From Bacteroidota bacterium (GTDB lineage: Bacteria > Bacteroidota > Ignavibacteria > UBA10030 > UBA8401), in contig SXSI01000007.1 in assembly GCA_005792285.1 (NCBI GenBank), positions 1 to 37,042 on the forward strand: a stretch of DNA of 37,042 nucleotides, in the 5' to 3' direction. Below the pieces are notes generated by a model. The model had not been told where the DNA came from. It ran no database searches and saw only the letters and a program-made list of their open reading frames with translations. This document shows positions 28,512 to 33,795 of this stretch, in pieces (the first letter of the stretch is position 1; every line of letters starts with the position of its first letter). A program made the position numbers and the translations under genes.

Positions 28512-29801
28512 ATGAGAATTCCCGCACCTAAGTTATTTATAATAGTTTTTGTTTTTTTTACAGTTAGTTCCTCTCAGGAATATTTTACACCTAATGTCGA
28601 TCAATCTCCAAAATTTGAAAAAAGAATACTTGGATTTTTTGTACCAGATTCTACTTATGGCCGACTCGATGTTTATATAAAATTATTTTCAAACACATTT
28701 CACTTTGAAAAAAAGGGGACAAAATTTAATTCAAGCGCCGAGATAAGTATTTTAATTATTAATTCTGATAAATCAATTTATACAGAAAAAATATGGATTG
28801 AACAATTTAATGTTGATACATATGATGAAACTTTTAAAACAAATCTCGGACAAGTAATTCAACGAACTTTTAGTGTACCACTTGCAAATTACAGTGTAAA
28901 AATAAGTGTAAAGGATCTTTCAACTAAAACTATATCGACAGAGGAAATATTATTTAATGATTTTACTTTGGGAAGAAATGAGTATTTGGGGATAAGTTCG
29001 ATATTGTTGCTAAATAATATTATTCGGACTAATTCTGGAACATCGCTAACTCCAAATTTATCAAACGTAATTGGTGAAGGAAAAGATACATTAAAAATAT
29101 TTTACGAATTATATAATTTTGTACCAAAAATAAATGATTCACTTTTAGTCTCGTATCAAATTATTAGTTCTTCAAACGATACAATTTATTCTAAAAATAA
29201 AAAGTATTTATCGAGAACAAATTTACAGCTTATTGAAAGTTTTGAAATTACAAAAATACCACTCGGAAAATCAAAATTAAAAATTACTGCTTCATCTCTA
29301 AGAAATCTAAAAGAAAATATTTCTAACTCATTGGAAATTATATCGAGAATTGGAAATGGTTTAATCGAAATTACAGATATTGAACTGGCAATTCAGCAAA
29401 CAAAATATATTGCAACGGACGCTGAATATAAAGAAATGGTTTTCGCAAAGTCAAAAGATGATAAAAAAAATCTGTTCGATAAATTTTGGAAGAAAAAAGA
29501 CAAGCTCCCTGCAACTGAAATAAATGAATACTTTTTAGAATATTATCAGCGAATTGAATATTCAAATAAAATGTTTTCGCATTTTACTGAAGGATGGAGA
29601 ACGGATATGGGAATGGCGTTTATTTTACTCGGACCTCCAAATAATATTGAGAGACATCCATTTGAAATTAATGCAAAACCTTTTGAAGTTTGGTCATATT
29701 ATATTTATAACCGACAGCTAATTTTTATTGACCAAAGTGGATTTGGTGATTATCGCTTAACAACCCCAATTTGGGATTTAATTCAGAGAATCTCTAAATA
29801 A
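28512..29801 (+). CDS. GWxTD domain-containing exported protein
   Basis: A protein of unknown function named for the GWxTD motif, here GWRTD at residues 361-365, inside FTEGWRTDMGMAFILLGPP. EVWSYYIYNRQLIFIDQSGFGDYRL follows near the C-terminus. The N-terminus (about 1-21) is a likely signal peptide without an evident lipobox, so it is probably periplasmic or surface-exposed. The family is common in the FCB group. Residues about 22-300 are beta-rich without a motif I recognise. The next gene, 11 bases on, is a short Omp85 protein, which suggests an outer-membrane or envelope role. The 429 residues are typical. Confidence 0.88.
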   Translation: MRIPAPKLFIIVFVFFTVSSSQEYFTPNVDQSPKFEKRILGFFVPDSTYGRLDVYIKLFSNTFHFEKKGTKFNSSAEISILIINSDKSIYTEKIWIEQFNVDTYDETFKTNLGQVIQRTFSVPLANYSVKISVKDLSTKTISTEEILFNDFTLGRNEYLGISSILLLNNIIRTNSGTSLTPNLSNVIGEGKDTLKIFYELYNFVPKINDSLLVSYQIISSSNDTIYSKNKKYLSRTNLQLIESFEITKIPLGKSKLKITASSLRNLKENISNSLEIISRIGNGLIEITDIELAIQQTKYIATDAEYKEMVFAKSKDDKKNLFDKFWKKKDKLPATEINEYFLEYYQRIEYSNKMFSHFTEGWRTDMGMAFILLGPPNNIERHPFEINAKPFEVWSYYIYNRQLIFIDQSGFGDYRLTTPIWDLIQRISK

Positions 29802-29812
29802 CATTCTGCTGA

Positions 29813-31297
29813 GTGTATCAAAAGCTAATATTTACAATAGTAATATTCACGCAATTCTTATTAACTCAACCGAATAATTTATACTCATTAAAAGAATTTT
29901 CGATAAAAGGGAATCAGCAACTTTCCGATCTTCAAGTTTCAGAATTAATTAATATTAAAAAAAATGATAAAATATCTTCATCGGTAGTTGAAAGTGGAAT
30001 TGATAATTTGCTTCATTGGTACGAAGAAAATGGTTATCCACTTGCAACTATTGAAGTAAATAAATTAGAAATTGATTCGGTAAAAAATGAATTATTACTT
30101 TCATTAATTATATCAGAAGGAAAATTAATTTTACTGAATGATATATTGGTTGAGGGAAATCAAACTACAAAAGGAAATATAATCAAACGAGAAGCCGAAA
30201 TTATTCCATTTGAAATTTATAGACAAAGTAAAATAAAAACTATTAAATCCAGAATTGAGAAAATGCAGTTATTTAGTTCTGTCGAGGAACCTTCAATTCA
30301 ATTGTCGGATTCAACTGCAATTTTAAAAATAAAAGTTCAGGAAGGAAATTATAATTCATTCGACGGAATTGCCGGATATGTTCCATCGGGAGATGGGAAA
30401 GGGACAATTACAGGATTGATGCATATTTCATTTAAAAATATTGCAGGGACCGGAAGGAAATTATATATTGATTGGGAAAAAGAAAATCAACTATCTCATA
30501 ATTATTTAATAAAATATAGTGAGCCTTGGGTTTTGAGTTTTCCAATTGATTTAAATTTATCAATAAGACAACGAAAAAACGAAAATCTATTTGTATTATT
30601 TTCATATGATATAAATGGAGCTTATAAATTAATTGAAAATATTATCGCAACAGGAACATATTTCCGCTCTGAAGTTACTCCACAAGAAGGAATATTAAAT
30701 CTTTCAAATTCAAGTGAATCATTAATTGGAGGGAGTATTTCTTTTGATTCACGAAATAATGTCCGCAATTACAGAAAAGGAATTTTCTTTTCCACAAAAT
30801 TATTAAGTGGTAATAAAAAAAATAAAATTAACGATTCAAGTGAAACAATAAAAATTACAAAATCTAATATTCATTTAGAAAATATATTTAGTTTAACTGA
30901 AGAAAGTGGACTTTATAATTATCTCTCATTCAATTCTGTATTTGCTTCCAAGTTAGAAATTAGCGACAGAATTCCACTTGGCGGGACTACAACTTTGCGC
31001 GGTTATCGTGAGTATGAATTTTATGGAACTACTACTTCGTTCCTTCAAACTGAATTTAGATATTACACTGGAATGACTTCTCAACTTTACGGTTTTTTTG
31101 ATTGCGGAACTTTTTGGAATAAAAATCTTCCGAATAGTCAGTTGCATTATGCAAATGAAAAAAAACTTTTATATGGTTATGGCGGTGGTGTTCGGTTGCA
31201 AATTAGTTCATGGTTGTATAGTTTTACAATTGGATATGCACAAAAAGATAAATTAACAGATGGAAAACTTCACATAGGACTATTAAATGAATTCTAA
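29813..31297 (+). CDS. Short Omp85/TamA-like outer-membrane protein with POTRA repeats
   Basis: An outer-membrane barrel protein of the Omp85 superfamily. Seen: a signal peptide (about 1-19), one or two POTRA-like segments (FSIKGNQQLSDLQVSELINIKK and EGNQTTKGNIIKREAEI-type repeats, about 25-180), then a beta-barrel. The lid-loop signature LRGYREYEF begins at residue 395 (Arg396, Gly397, Tyr398), preceded by IPLGGTTT and followed by FLQTEFRYY. At 494 residues it is much shorter than BamA (five POTRA, about 800) and closer to TamA. It may export or insert surface proteins, possibly the GWxTD protein upstream. It starts with GTG 11 bases after that gene and overlaps the prenyltransferase gene by 11 bases. 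Confidence 0.85.
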   Translation: MYQKLIFTIVIFTQFLLTQPNNLYSLKEFSIKGNQQLSDLQVSELINIKKNDKISSSVVESGIDNLLHWYEENGYPLATIEVNKLEIDSVKNELLLSLIISEGKLILLNDILVEGNQTTKGNIIKREAEIIPFEIYRQSKIKTIKSRIEKMQLFSSVEEPSIQLSDSTAILKIKVQEGNYNSFDGIAGYVPSGDGKGTITGLMHISFKNIAGTGRKLYIDWEKENQLSHNYLIKYSEPWVLSFPIDLNLSIRQRKNENLFVLFSYDINGAYKLIENIIATGTYFRSEVTPQEGILNLSNSSESLIGGSISFDSRNNVRNYRKGIFFSTKLLSGNKKNKINDSSETIKITKSNIHLENIFSLTEESGLYNYLSFNSVFASKLEISDRIPLGGTTTLRGYREYEFYGTTTSFLQTEFRYYTGMTSQLYGFFDCGTFWNKNLPNSQLHYANEKKLLYGYGGGVRLQISSWLYSFTIGYAQKDKLTDGKLHIGLLNEF

Positions 31298-32120
31298 AAT
31301 AAAATTATTAAAAACGTTTTTTATAATTATCAGACCGTTGAATGCTTTAATTACCTTTTTGGTAATTGCAACCGCAATAATTTTGTCGGGAGCTTCAATT
31401 TTAAATTGGCAAATTATTTTACTTCCATCTTTAATTGGAGCAATTGTTGCATCTGCAGGAATGATTATAAATGATATTTTCGATCAGGAAATTGACAAAA
31501 TAAATCGTCCAGAAAGAGTATTGCCAAGTAAATTAATTTCAGAAAAAACTGCGTATAAATGGTATTTTATTTTAAACGGAATTGCATTAATTATGACTTT
31601 AAATTTACCAGTTTATTCTCAGACGGTAGTTTATATGGCTCTGTTTTTGATTTATTTTTATAGCGCACATTTAAAAAAATCTTTTTTGTTTGGTAATTTA
31701 AATGTTGCTGGATTAACTGGTTTGGCTTTTATTTTTGGTGGATCAATAACAGGAAATTATTCGGATGTTTTGCTTCCAGCACTTTTTGCATTTCTAATTA
31801 ATTTTGCAAGAGAAGTTGTAAAAGATTTTGAAGATATGGAAGGTGACTTAAAAGAAAATGCAAAAACATTTCCAATTAAATTTGGAAAATTAGCTACACA
31901 AATATTAGTTACACTAATTTTACTTTTACTTATCTATTCTACAAACCCAATTTTAAAAAATATCGAATATATTTATTTTGTTTCAGCACTTATTTATCTT
32001 CCAATTGCAATTTCATTATTTTATTTATGGAAAGATTGTTCGAAAAACGAACTGCATAAAGTCAGCACAATTTTGAAGTACACAATGTTAGCAGGATTAA
32101 TTATTATTTTTAGTTTATGA
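31287..32120 (+). CDS. UbiA-family prenyltransferase, DGGGP synthase-like
   Basis: Integral-membrane prenyltransferase with about eight or nine predicted helices. Two Asp-rich motifs coordinate Mg and the prenyl diphosphate: NDIFDQEID (Asn62, Asp63, Asp66, Asp70) and DFEDMEGD (Asp180, Asp183, Asp187). The pattern NDIFDxExDKINRPERVLPS and AREVVKDFEDMEGD resembles the archaeal-type geranylgeranylglyceryl phosphate geranylgeranyltransferase branch, which also occurs in FCB-group bacteria. Menaquinone (MenA) or tocopherol-like roles are possible alternatives. The 277 residues fit. It overlaps the Omp85 gene by 11 bases and the rnhB ATG in ATGA. Confidence 0.85.
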   Translation: MNSKIKLLKTFFIIIRPLNALITFLVIATAIILSGASILNWQIILLPSLIGAIVASAGMIINDIFDQEIDKINRPERVLPSKLISEKTAYKWYFILNGIALIMTLNLPVYSQTVVYMALFLIYFYSAHLKKSFLFGNLNVAGLTGLAFIFGGSITGNYSDVLLPALFAFLINFAREVVKDFEDMEGDLKENAKTFPIKFGKLATQILVTLILLLLIYSTNPILKNIEYIYFVSALIYLPIAISLFYLWKDCSKNELHKVSTILKYTMLAGLIIIFSL

Positions 32121-32740
32121 ATTTGCTAATCGAAAAAAAATTATGGTCAAAAGGAAACAACTTTATCGCTGGAGTTGATGAAGCTGGACGCGGTCCACTT
32201 GCAGGTCCGGTTGTTGCTGCTGTAGTTGTATTCGATGAAGCTACACTAAAAAAAACATTCAATAAAAAAATTAATGATTCAAAAAAATTATCATCTAAAT
32301 TAAGAGATGAATTGTACACTCATATTTTAGAATCTGCAAATTCAGTTGAAGTTGGAGTGGTAACTAAAAATGTGATTGATAAAATAAATATTCTTGAAGC
32401 CACTAAACAAGCGATGAATATTGCTTTGCAAAAACTTTCAATTAATCCCGAAATAGTATTAGTTGATGGAAATTTTTACAAACATCAGAAATATTCAATT
32501 ACAAATCTTGTAAAAGGAGATGCTCGTTCATATATTATTGCAGCCGCATCAATTGTTGCAAAAGTAACTCGAGATAAAATTATGATTGAATATGATAAGC
32601 AATTCCCGCAATTTGGATTTGCAAAACATAAAGGTTATGGTACTGCACTTCATATTCGAAATATAAATGAATATGGATATTCACCATTGCATCGTACAAG
32701 TTTTCATTTACAAAGTAAATTAATTTCAGAAAAAAAATAA
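32117..32740 (+). CDS. rnhB: Ribonuclease HII
   Basis: Cleaves RNA in RNA-DNA hybrids and single ribonucleotides in DNA. Seen: IAGVDEAGRGPLAGPVVAA with the catalytic Asp21-Glu22, then Asp117 in VLVDGN, and YDKQFPQFGFAKHKGYGT near the C-terminus with the fourth acidic residue. The 207 residues are normal. The ATG overlaps the upstream TGA. The stop is immediately followed, without a spacer, by the ATG of the cyclase-like gene. The later position of yraN beside rnhB is a common bacterial arrangement, here with one gene inserted. Confidence 0.97.
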   Translation: MNLLIEKKLWSKGNNFIAGVDEAGRGPLAGPVVAAVVVFDEATLKKTFNKKINDSKKLSSKLRDELYTHILESANSVEVGVVTKNVIDKINILEATKQAMNIALQKLSINPEIVLVDGNFYKHQKYSITNLVKGDARSYIIAAASIVAKVTRDKIMIEYDKQFPQFGFAKHKGYGTALHIRNINEYGYSPLHRTSFHLQSKLISEKK

Positions 32741-33427
32741 ATGACCGAATCATCACCTCCAATATTGTTGTCAAATACTTCGGTATTAGTTTGCATTCCT
32801 TTGTTTGTTGAAAATGAAAGTAAAACATCGATACAATATTTTCAGGCAACTTTAAATTCCAGAATCGAAAAACATCAAGGTACATTAAGTGTAACTGAAA
32901 CAAATATTCCGATCGCATATTTTAATGAAGTTACTTCGGCAGTTAATTGTGCAATAAATATTCAGGAAACACTTTCAACTTATAACACAAATAGAAATTT
33001 ATCCGAACAGATTAATGTGAAAATCGGAATTCATATTGGCGAAATATTTATTTCTGAAAATATTCCGCAAGGTAAAATTGTAAATGTGGCAAATGATATT
33101 GCTTCAATTACACCGGAAAAAATGATTTATCTTTCGAAGGAAGTTTATAATCGTGTAAGAATAAAATTACTAATTCAAATGAAATCTATTGGCTTGGAAT
33201 TATTACCAACTTCAAATATTCAAAAAGAAATTTACTCTGTAGATTGGGAAAAAATTGCGATTAATTTACTTGAGTCACTCCGTAAAATTACTGATGATAG
33301 CAGCAGAAAACCAATTAGTGCCAGATTTATTGAACCTCGCAAAGACCAAAATAAATTAGTTGTGTTTCTTGTTTTTGGAATTATAATAGCAATTGTTCTT
33401 TACATGCGCTATCAGAAATGGTTTTAA
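32741..33427 (+). CDS. Tail-anchored protein with a degenerate class III nucleotidyl cyclase-like domain
   Basis: I do not know a named family for it. Residues about 14-160 track the class III adenylate/guanylate cyclase domain: a strand where active enzymes have the DIxGFT Asp (here VLVCIPLF), then IEKHQGTLSV, IPIAYFNEVTSAVNCAINIQETL, KIGIHIGE (94-101), GKIVNVANDIAS (111-122) and YLSKEVYNRV. The two metal-binding aspartates appear lost, the second being Asn or Thr in TETNIP. The transition-state Asn is kept (Asn115) but its Arg is not (VNVANDI versus VNIAARL), so catalysis is unlikely. A C-terminal membrane helix (about 206-222) follows a short linker. It starts at the rnhB stop and overlaps yraN by 10 bases. 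Confidence 0.65.
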   Translation: MTESSPPILLSNTSVLVCIPLFVENESKTSIQYFQATLNSRIEKHQGTLSVTETNIPIAYFNEVTSAVNCAINIQETLSTYNTNRNLSEQINVKIGIHIGEIFISENIPQGKIVNVANDIASITPEKMIYLSKEVYNRVRIKLLIQMKSIGLELLPTSNIQKEIYSVDWEKIAINLLESLRKITDDSSRKPISARFIEPRKDQNKLVVFLVFGIIIAIVLYMRYQKWF

Positions 33428-33795
33428 AAAATAATCCAAAAAAAATTTCTAAAACCCAAATTGGAAATTTGGGTGAAATCAAAGCTGTAAAATATTTAAC
33501 TCAAAAAGGTTTCAAAATTGTTGATCAACATTTTTATTATCAACATGGCGAAATAGATATAATCGCAAAAGATAAAACCGAATTGGTTTTTGTCGAAGTT
33601 AAATTCAGGACTCAAGATAAATTTGGAGCTCCCGAAGAATCTGTAACTCCAAAAAAACAAGAACTACTACGCAGAACTGCAGAAGGATATTTATACAAAA
33701 ATAATTTAAATGACATTTCATGCCGCTTCGATGTTATCTCAATTTTATCAAAAAATAAAAAAACTACTTTTCAACATTTTATAAACGCTTTCTAA
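33418..33795 (+). CDS. yraN: YraN family (UPF0102) nuclease-fold protein
   Basis: A small protein of the PD-(D/E)XK nuclease-like fold. Its role is uncertain, and Holliday-junction-resolvase-like activity has been proposed for the family. Seen: IGNLGEIKAVKYLTQKGF, then YYQHGEIDIIAKDKTELVFVEVKFRTQDKFG, which supplies the E...D...ExK active-site layout, and SVTPKKQELLRRTAEGYL. The 125 residues are normal. The ATG at 33418 overlaps the preceding gene. It closes the rnhB-(cyclase-like)-yraN group, and cstA starts 18 bases later. Confidence 0.93.
   Translation: MVLKNNPKKISKTQIGNLGEIKAVKYLTQKGFKIVDQHFYYQHGEIDIIAKDKTELVFVEVKFRTQDKFGAPEESVTPKKQELLRRTAEGYLYKNNLNDISCRFDVISILSKNKKTTFQHFINAF

Follow-up and report, generated by a model that had tools for sequence, protein, structure and literature searches.

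The gene between rnhB and yraN in the window (the whole stretch of 37,042 nucleotides that was analyzed), here called X, encodes a protein that, judged by ancestry and predicted fold, is a member of the class III nucleotidyl cyclase domain superfamily. X is a lineage-restricted pseudoenzyme variant of this known fold, and the reading that we favor, with moderate confidence, is that of a tail-anchored pseudoenzyme serving as a membrane-tethered, non-enzymatic interaction module that is probably dimeric.

The X reading frame has an ATG start and a TAA stop. It follows rnhB with zero spacing, as rnhB ends at 32740 and X starts at 32741, and it overlaps yraN, which starts at 33418, by 10 bases, the same arrangement and coordinates that the earlier note had given for the gene.

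32117..32740, + strand: rnhB, ribonuclease HII (RNase HII), upstream neighbor (Pfam PF01351, E 1.6e-42)
32741..33427, + strand: X, pseudo-cyclase gene, 228 aa, predicted cytoplasmic domain and C-terminal tail anchor (open reading frame, same-slot orthologs in 6 genomes, dN/dS)
33418..33795, + strand: yraN, UPF0102, downstream neighbor (Pfam PF02021, E 2.6e-28)

The gene row in the window reads UbiA prenyltransferase, RNase HII, X, UPF0102/YraN, CstA and pterin dehydratase. Directly upstream of UbiA (28512-31297) come a GWxTD-domain protein and, after it, an Omp85/POTRA outer-membrane protein. Relatives of X were sought in 60 related genomes, and full-length relatives were found in six beyond the window's own (G001, G002, G004, G010, G012 and G015), with 25-54% identity to the window protein. 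Five of the orthologs were recovered by contig scan, and all come from unclassified Bacteroidota MAGs. All seven genomes hold the gene in the same slot, rnhB-X-yraN, with UbiA upstream and CstA just past yraN; since intact orthologs share this slot in six further genomes, X is more than a chance ORF. Within family f1, X is present in 7 of 22 genomes and in three of nine genera (g1, g2 and g4). The window's genome and that of its genus-mate measure ~1.7 Mb (window G+C 32%), against genomes of ~3-4.5 Mb elsewhere in the family, and this reduced lineage keeps X.

Sequence profiles and predicted structures point to the same fold for the first 170 or so residues of the protein.

32759..33244, + strand: class III cyclase-fold domain, residues 7-168 (PF00211, AlphaFold2, structure match to 3mr7)

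The window protein matches PF00211 over residues 62-140 with 23.3 bits, above the cut-off of 21.9, and individual matches at E 0.1 or better were obtained for two of the seven orthologs. A profile built from all seven retrieved 3mr7, a cyclase from Silicibacter, at E 1.1e-17, and the mycobacterial Ma1120 cyclase at ~4e-10. None of the profile libraries searched has a separate entry for the family. The AlphaFold2 (AF2) model, made from an alignment of 14 sequences, has a mean pLDDT of 86, with ~90 or more across most of the cyclase domain, and follows the cyclase order of elements before ending in helices at 169-188 and 204-227; in the AF2 models of X, the first two helices of the cyclase fold are merged into one. 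When this model was compared with 3mr7 by VIA-align, 164 residues (model residues 6-170) superposed at 1.9 A with a Z-score of 24.3, and the best 50 VIA-align rows were class III cyclases; Foldseek was also run. A prediction from an alignment of orthologs only gave the same fold (mean pLDDT 81, Z 23.8 to 3mr7), which rules out that the fold was imposed by the cyclases in the alignment. The fold assignment of the earlier note, which had been drawn from motif order, is thus borne out by predicted structures that hold the cyclase core and by a PF00211 score above the cut-off, and all the motifs quoted there are found in the translation.

Exceeding the PF00211 cut-off does not show that a protein makes cAMP, and the catalytic columns, scored by aligning the X orthologs with 49 related cyclases, indicate loss of the entire active site.

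32774..32776, + strand: position of the first metal-binding Asp, residue 12, Asn here and N/N/S/Q/Q/A/V in the seven orthologs (Asp in 100% of 49 cyclases)
32903..32905, + strand: position of the second metal-binding Asp, residue 55, Asn here and N/N/G/S/E/S/N in the orthologs (Asp in 100% of 49 cyclases)
33083..33097, + strand: VN..A.R motif region, residues 115-119 (Asn in 98% and Arg in 100% of 49 cyclases)
33206..33208, + strand: position of the invariant Lys of beta7, residue 156, P/T/L/G/S/S/S in the orthologs (Lys in 100% of 49 cyclases)

The transition-state Arg at 119 is absent from all seven orthologs (D/D/G/A/E/S/S), and Asn 115, although kept in the window protein, is Asn in two of seven and otherwise D or E. 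The adenine-side Asp 112, found in 92% of the 49 cyclases, is lost in X, as is the beta7 Lys, which we take to have a role in phosphate binding; Gly 54, 98-100% invariant in the cyclases, is kept in three orthologs. Column assignment in beta1 is less certain owing to the divergent N-terminus of X. The window protein has five Asp residues (119, 168, 185, 186 and 202), and because none precedes residue 119, neither metal Asp can sit at a shifted beta1 or beta2-beta3 position, so that a displaced catalytic Asp is ruled out in this protein; residues 86-137, where the transition-state Arg would be expected, hold no Arg. The absence of both metal Asp residues and of the transition-state Arg, as claimed in the earlier note, is therefore upheld, with none of them shifted. 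Two marks of an active class III cyclase are the metal Asp pair and the transition-state Asn together with Arg, and X has neither, which makes catalysis by X very unlikely on sequence grounds.

Conservation in the family lies elsewhere in the protein. Core residues G47, F61, V68, C70, A71, Q75, G96, H98, G100, G111 and G151 are invariant, Asp 101 is replaced by Glu in all seven orthologs to give an invariant GxHxGE, and R41, S105, P125, Y130, R138, W169, S179 and L180, among others, are invariant in X and not in cyclases. A large cyclase from another genome (L024, G053), in which the VN motif reads AI (GADTAIVSRIEA) and the Asp and Arg motifs are kept, is possibly a second, partly degenerate cyclase.

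The domain is followed by two further helices, the second of which is the predicted membrane anchor.

33245..33304, + strand: conserved helix after the domain, residues 169-188, with family-invariant W169, S179 and L180 (alignment, AF2)
33350..33421, + strand: C-terminal transmembrane helix, predicted tail anchor, residues 204-227 (hydropathy, AF2 helix, hydrophobic C-terminus in 7/7 orthologs)

There is one C-terminal hydrophobic stretch in the window protein, with the best 19-mer at 206-224 (mean Kyte-Doolittle 2.5). The corresponding 19-residue stretch in six orthologs measured has a mean hydropathy of 2.1-3.0 and ends 0-4 residues from the C-terminus, and the seventh ortholog has the same hydrophobic end in the alignment. 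Hydropathy and the AF2 helix at 204-227 thus agree with the single C-terminal membrane helix foreseen in the earlier note. A lone hydrophobic helix at the C-terminus, without an N-terminal hydrophobic signal, is predicted to make X a tail-anchored protein; since positive charges flank the anchor on both sides, the topology given here rests on the absent N-terminal signal.

Pseudoenzymes are well studied among kinases and, to our knowledge, little studied among cyclases. The X family is a clean case, in which all catalytic positions are lost and the fold is retained under selection, and it lets one ask what the cyclase fold does without nucleotide binding or turnover. X is like the PF00211 class III domain and the Silicibacter pomeroyi cyclase 3mr7 in its complete fold, motif order and core G/F/C/Q/H residues, but it lacks the metal Asp pair, the Gly-Asp-Gly turn, the adenine-side Asp, the transition-state Arg and the beta7 Lys, has lost the Asn in most orthologs, and is a stand-alone protein with a C-terminal tail anchor. 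Cyclases of the MFTDI type, multi-domain proteins from the same phylum with an N-terminal cyclase domain, are among the best matches outside the family (up to ~110 bits); unlike X, they are ~650-1000 aa long, have intact catalytic residues and lie outside the rnhB-yraN slot. DUF2652 cyclase-like proteins of Bacteroidetes and Actinobacteria are, like X, small single-domain class III relatives of unknown function (PMC4886424). Nearly all of them retain both metal Asp residues and they are without membrane helices (PMC4886424), the opposite of X, where the metal Asp residues are absent and a membrane helix is predicted; DUF2652 was absent from the Pfam matches of X and its orthologs, and X is not assigned to that family. 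Tail-anchored proteins exist in E. coli, and bacterial proteins of this type share with X a single hydrophobic helix at the extreme C-terminus and the lack of an N-terminal signal (PMC6794478). In the literature searched, we found no tail-anchored protein with a cyclase fold, nor any account of a dead class III cyclase from bacteria that is tail-anchored or stands alone, and a search on rnhB/yraN returned nothing useful.

Inactive cyclase domains of eukaryotes, such as C2 of mammalian adenylyl cyclase, resemble X in that the fold outlives the catalytic residues (PMC4174876). These catalytically inactive C2 domains keep the wreath-like dimer (PMC4174876), and a dead cyclase domain can for that reason still dimerize. 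They also retain half of the active site and form a pair with a catalytic partner, whereas in X both halves are gone and the protein stands by itself, with a tail anchor. As we envisage it, a class III cyclase domain lost its whole catalytic site a single time, in the common ancestor of the X family, and gained the short helix and the single predicted C-terminal membrane anchor. X would be translated, with coupling, from the rnhB-yraN transcript and inserted post-translationally with its domain facing the cytoplasm, and there it would act without catalysis as a membrane-tethered interaction module, as a dimer held together probably by the retained cyclase core. Of this picture, the analysis shows the ancestry, the predicted fold, the missing catalytic residues, the single origin, purifying selection, the hydrophobic tail and the conserved slot, and the common transcript, membrane insertion, topology, dimerization and a scaffold or regulatory role are inferred. 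More tentatively, and with slightly less than even confidence, we suggest that the cyclase fold has been turned fully into a non-nucleotide, tail-anchored scaffold or adaptor that neither senses nucleotides nor serves as one half of a catalytic heterodimer.

The main rival is that X is a regulatory subunit that heterodimerizes with the resident CHASE2-cyclase and restrains it as a dominant-negative-like half. Class III cyclases function as dimers, and exactly one genuine class III cyclase is present in each of G000 and G001. The G000 cyclase (L124, 730 aa) is a membrane protein of CHASE2 and PF00211 with intact Asp/Asp/Arg motifs, the G001 copy is closely similar, cNMP-binding proteins are present, and X and the CHASE2 cyclase are predicted to share one membrane. 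However, all 17 family genomes searched have PF00211 proteins, and as these genomes include ten X-less ones, the family's PF00211 proteins do not need X. X also comes from a different cyclase subfamily than the CHASE2 cyclase: with the X profile, the family's other ~730-aa cyclase loci scored weakly (11-20 bits or below reporting), while soluble MFTDI-type domains scored strongly. Furthermore, X is unable to complete a hybrid active site because the metal and transition-state half-sites are both missing, and we consider this rival unlikely.

A role as a nucleotide sensor, with ATP, cAMP or another nucleotide bound in the cyclase cleft without turnover, is less likely still. The fold and cleft scaffold are predicted to be retained and GxHxGE is invariant, but the metal, ribose and triphosphate columns (D12, D55, D112, N115, R119 and K156) vary freely among orthologs, and the ortholog alignment contains no substitute set of conserved polar residues at the old ligand positions. 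This free variation makes nucleotide binding at the old active site unlikely as far as the alignment can tell, and it weakens the suggestion of the earlier note that X might bind a nucleotide, since the residues in question are free to vary and not just substituted.

Equally improbable is that X is a partner of its operon neighbors, drawing YraN, RNase HII or the CstA transporter to the membrane. The slot and the tight spacing are retained in all seven genomes, and within family f1 the adjacency of yraN and cstA is seen in X-bearing genera only. In a comparison of the family's yraN loci (L061-L064, L035, L039, L043, L045 and L048), the gene after yraN was CstA in g1, g2 and g4, PhoH in g3, g5 and g9, and a CarB-like carbamoyl-phosphate synthase in g6 and g8, the latter two identities being read from sequence. 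Against this partnership, other families of the order also have UbiA-rnhB-yraN-cstA but no X, so that the arrangement looks like an ancestral one that was retained. The slot also holds one CstA subtype in g2 and another in g1/g4, with X present in both cases, and the link to YraN, RNase HII or CstA is one of gene order alone. A CstA partnership was set aside as the main reading, as ancestral gene order and subtype replacement explain it.

X is under purifying selection, which speaks for the tail-anchored interaction module that we favor. Pairwise dN/dS values for five pairs were 0.15, 0.17, 0.26, 0.32 and 0.19 (Nei-Gojobori), which are approximate because dS is near or above 1, and together with the intact same-slot orthologs they indicate a selected gene and not a remnant. 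Between G000 and G001, X is 54% identical compared to 67% for RnhB and 63% for YraN; X evolves faster than its neighbors, and the constraint on it is therefore moderate. That X is a decaying, functionless cyclase remnant, as the loss of all catalytic residues and the fast divergence might suggest, has a negligible probability given seven intact frames at 25-54% identity, dN/dS of 0.15-0.32, core residues that do not vary, and the survival of X in the two small genomes of the genus (1.7 Mb, where other family members have ~3-4.5 Mb), and a pseudogene is ruled out by the intact orthologs and dN/dS.

A tree of 55 cyclase domains recovered X as one clade (support 100/99) on a long branch, indicating that inactivation traces to one event or one lineage; the tree does not place the parent cyclase subfamily. 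Outside the family, the relatives with the highest scores are cyclases of multi-domain or response-regulator type, and their catalytic motifs are intact. In the species tree g1 is separated from g2/g4 at support values of 61 and 82, which are weak to moderate (82 for the outside position of g1), and since the tree does not unite the three X genera, it suggests that X was gained at the base of the family and then lost in other genera, or else that long-branch effects are at work, g1 being fast-evolving.

The survey of rnhB-yraN loci agrees in part with the earlier note, which had looked to these loci in Ignavibacteria for conservation of the gene: X is conserved at these loci, and the residues in question are again missing, but this holds for only three of the family's nine genera. 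In ten X-less family genomes with both genes on one stretch (G003, G005, G006, G008, G009, G011, G013, G017, G018 and G021), rnhB and yraN abut, overlap or lie no more than ~30 bases apart. A common insertion between rnhB and yraN was ruled out, as the genes abut in the family's other scorable genera and nearly everywhere else in the order. Two other reading frames were seen between these genes. A genome from another family of the order (G029) has a 245-aa ORF there (L058:817-1656) with no resemblance to X, and G043 has a 74-aa ORF (L060:1229-1453) that presumably resembles DUF433 antitoxin-like proteins.
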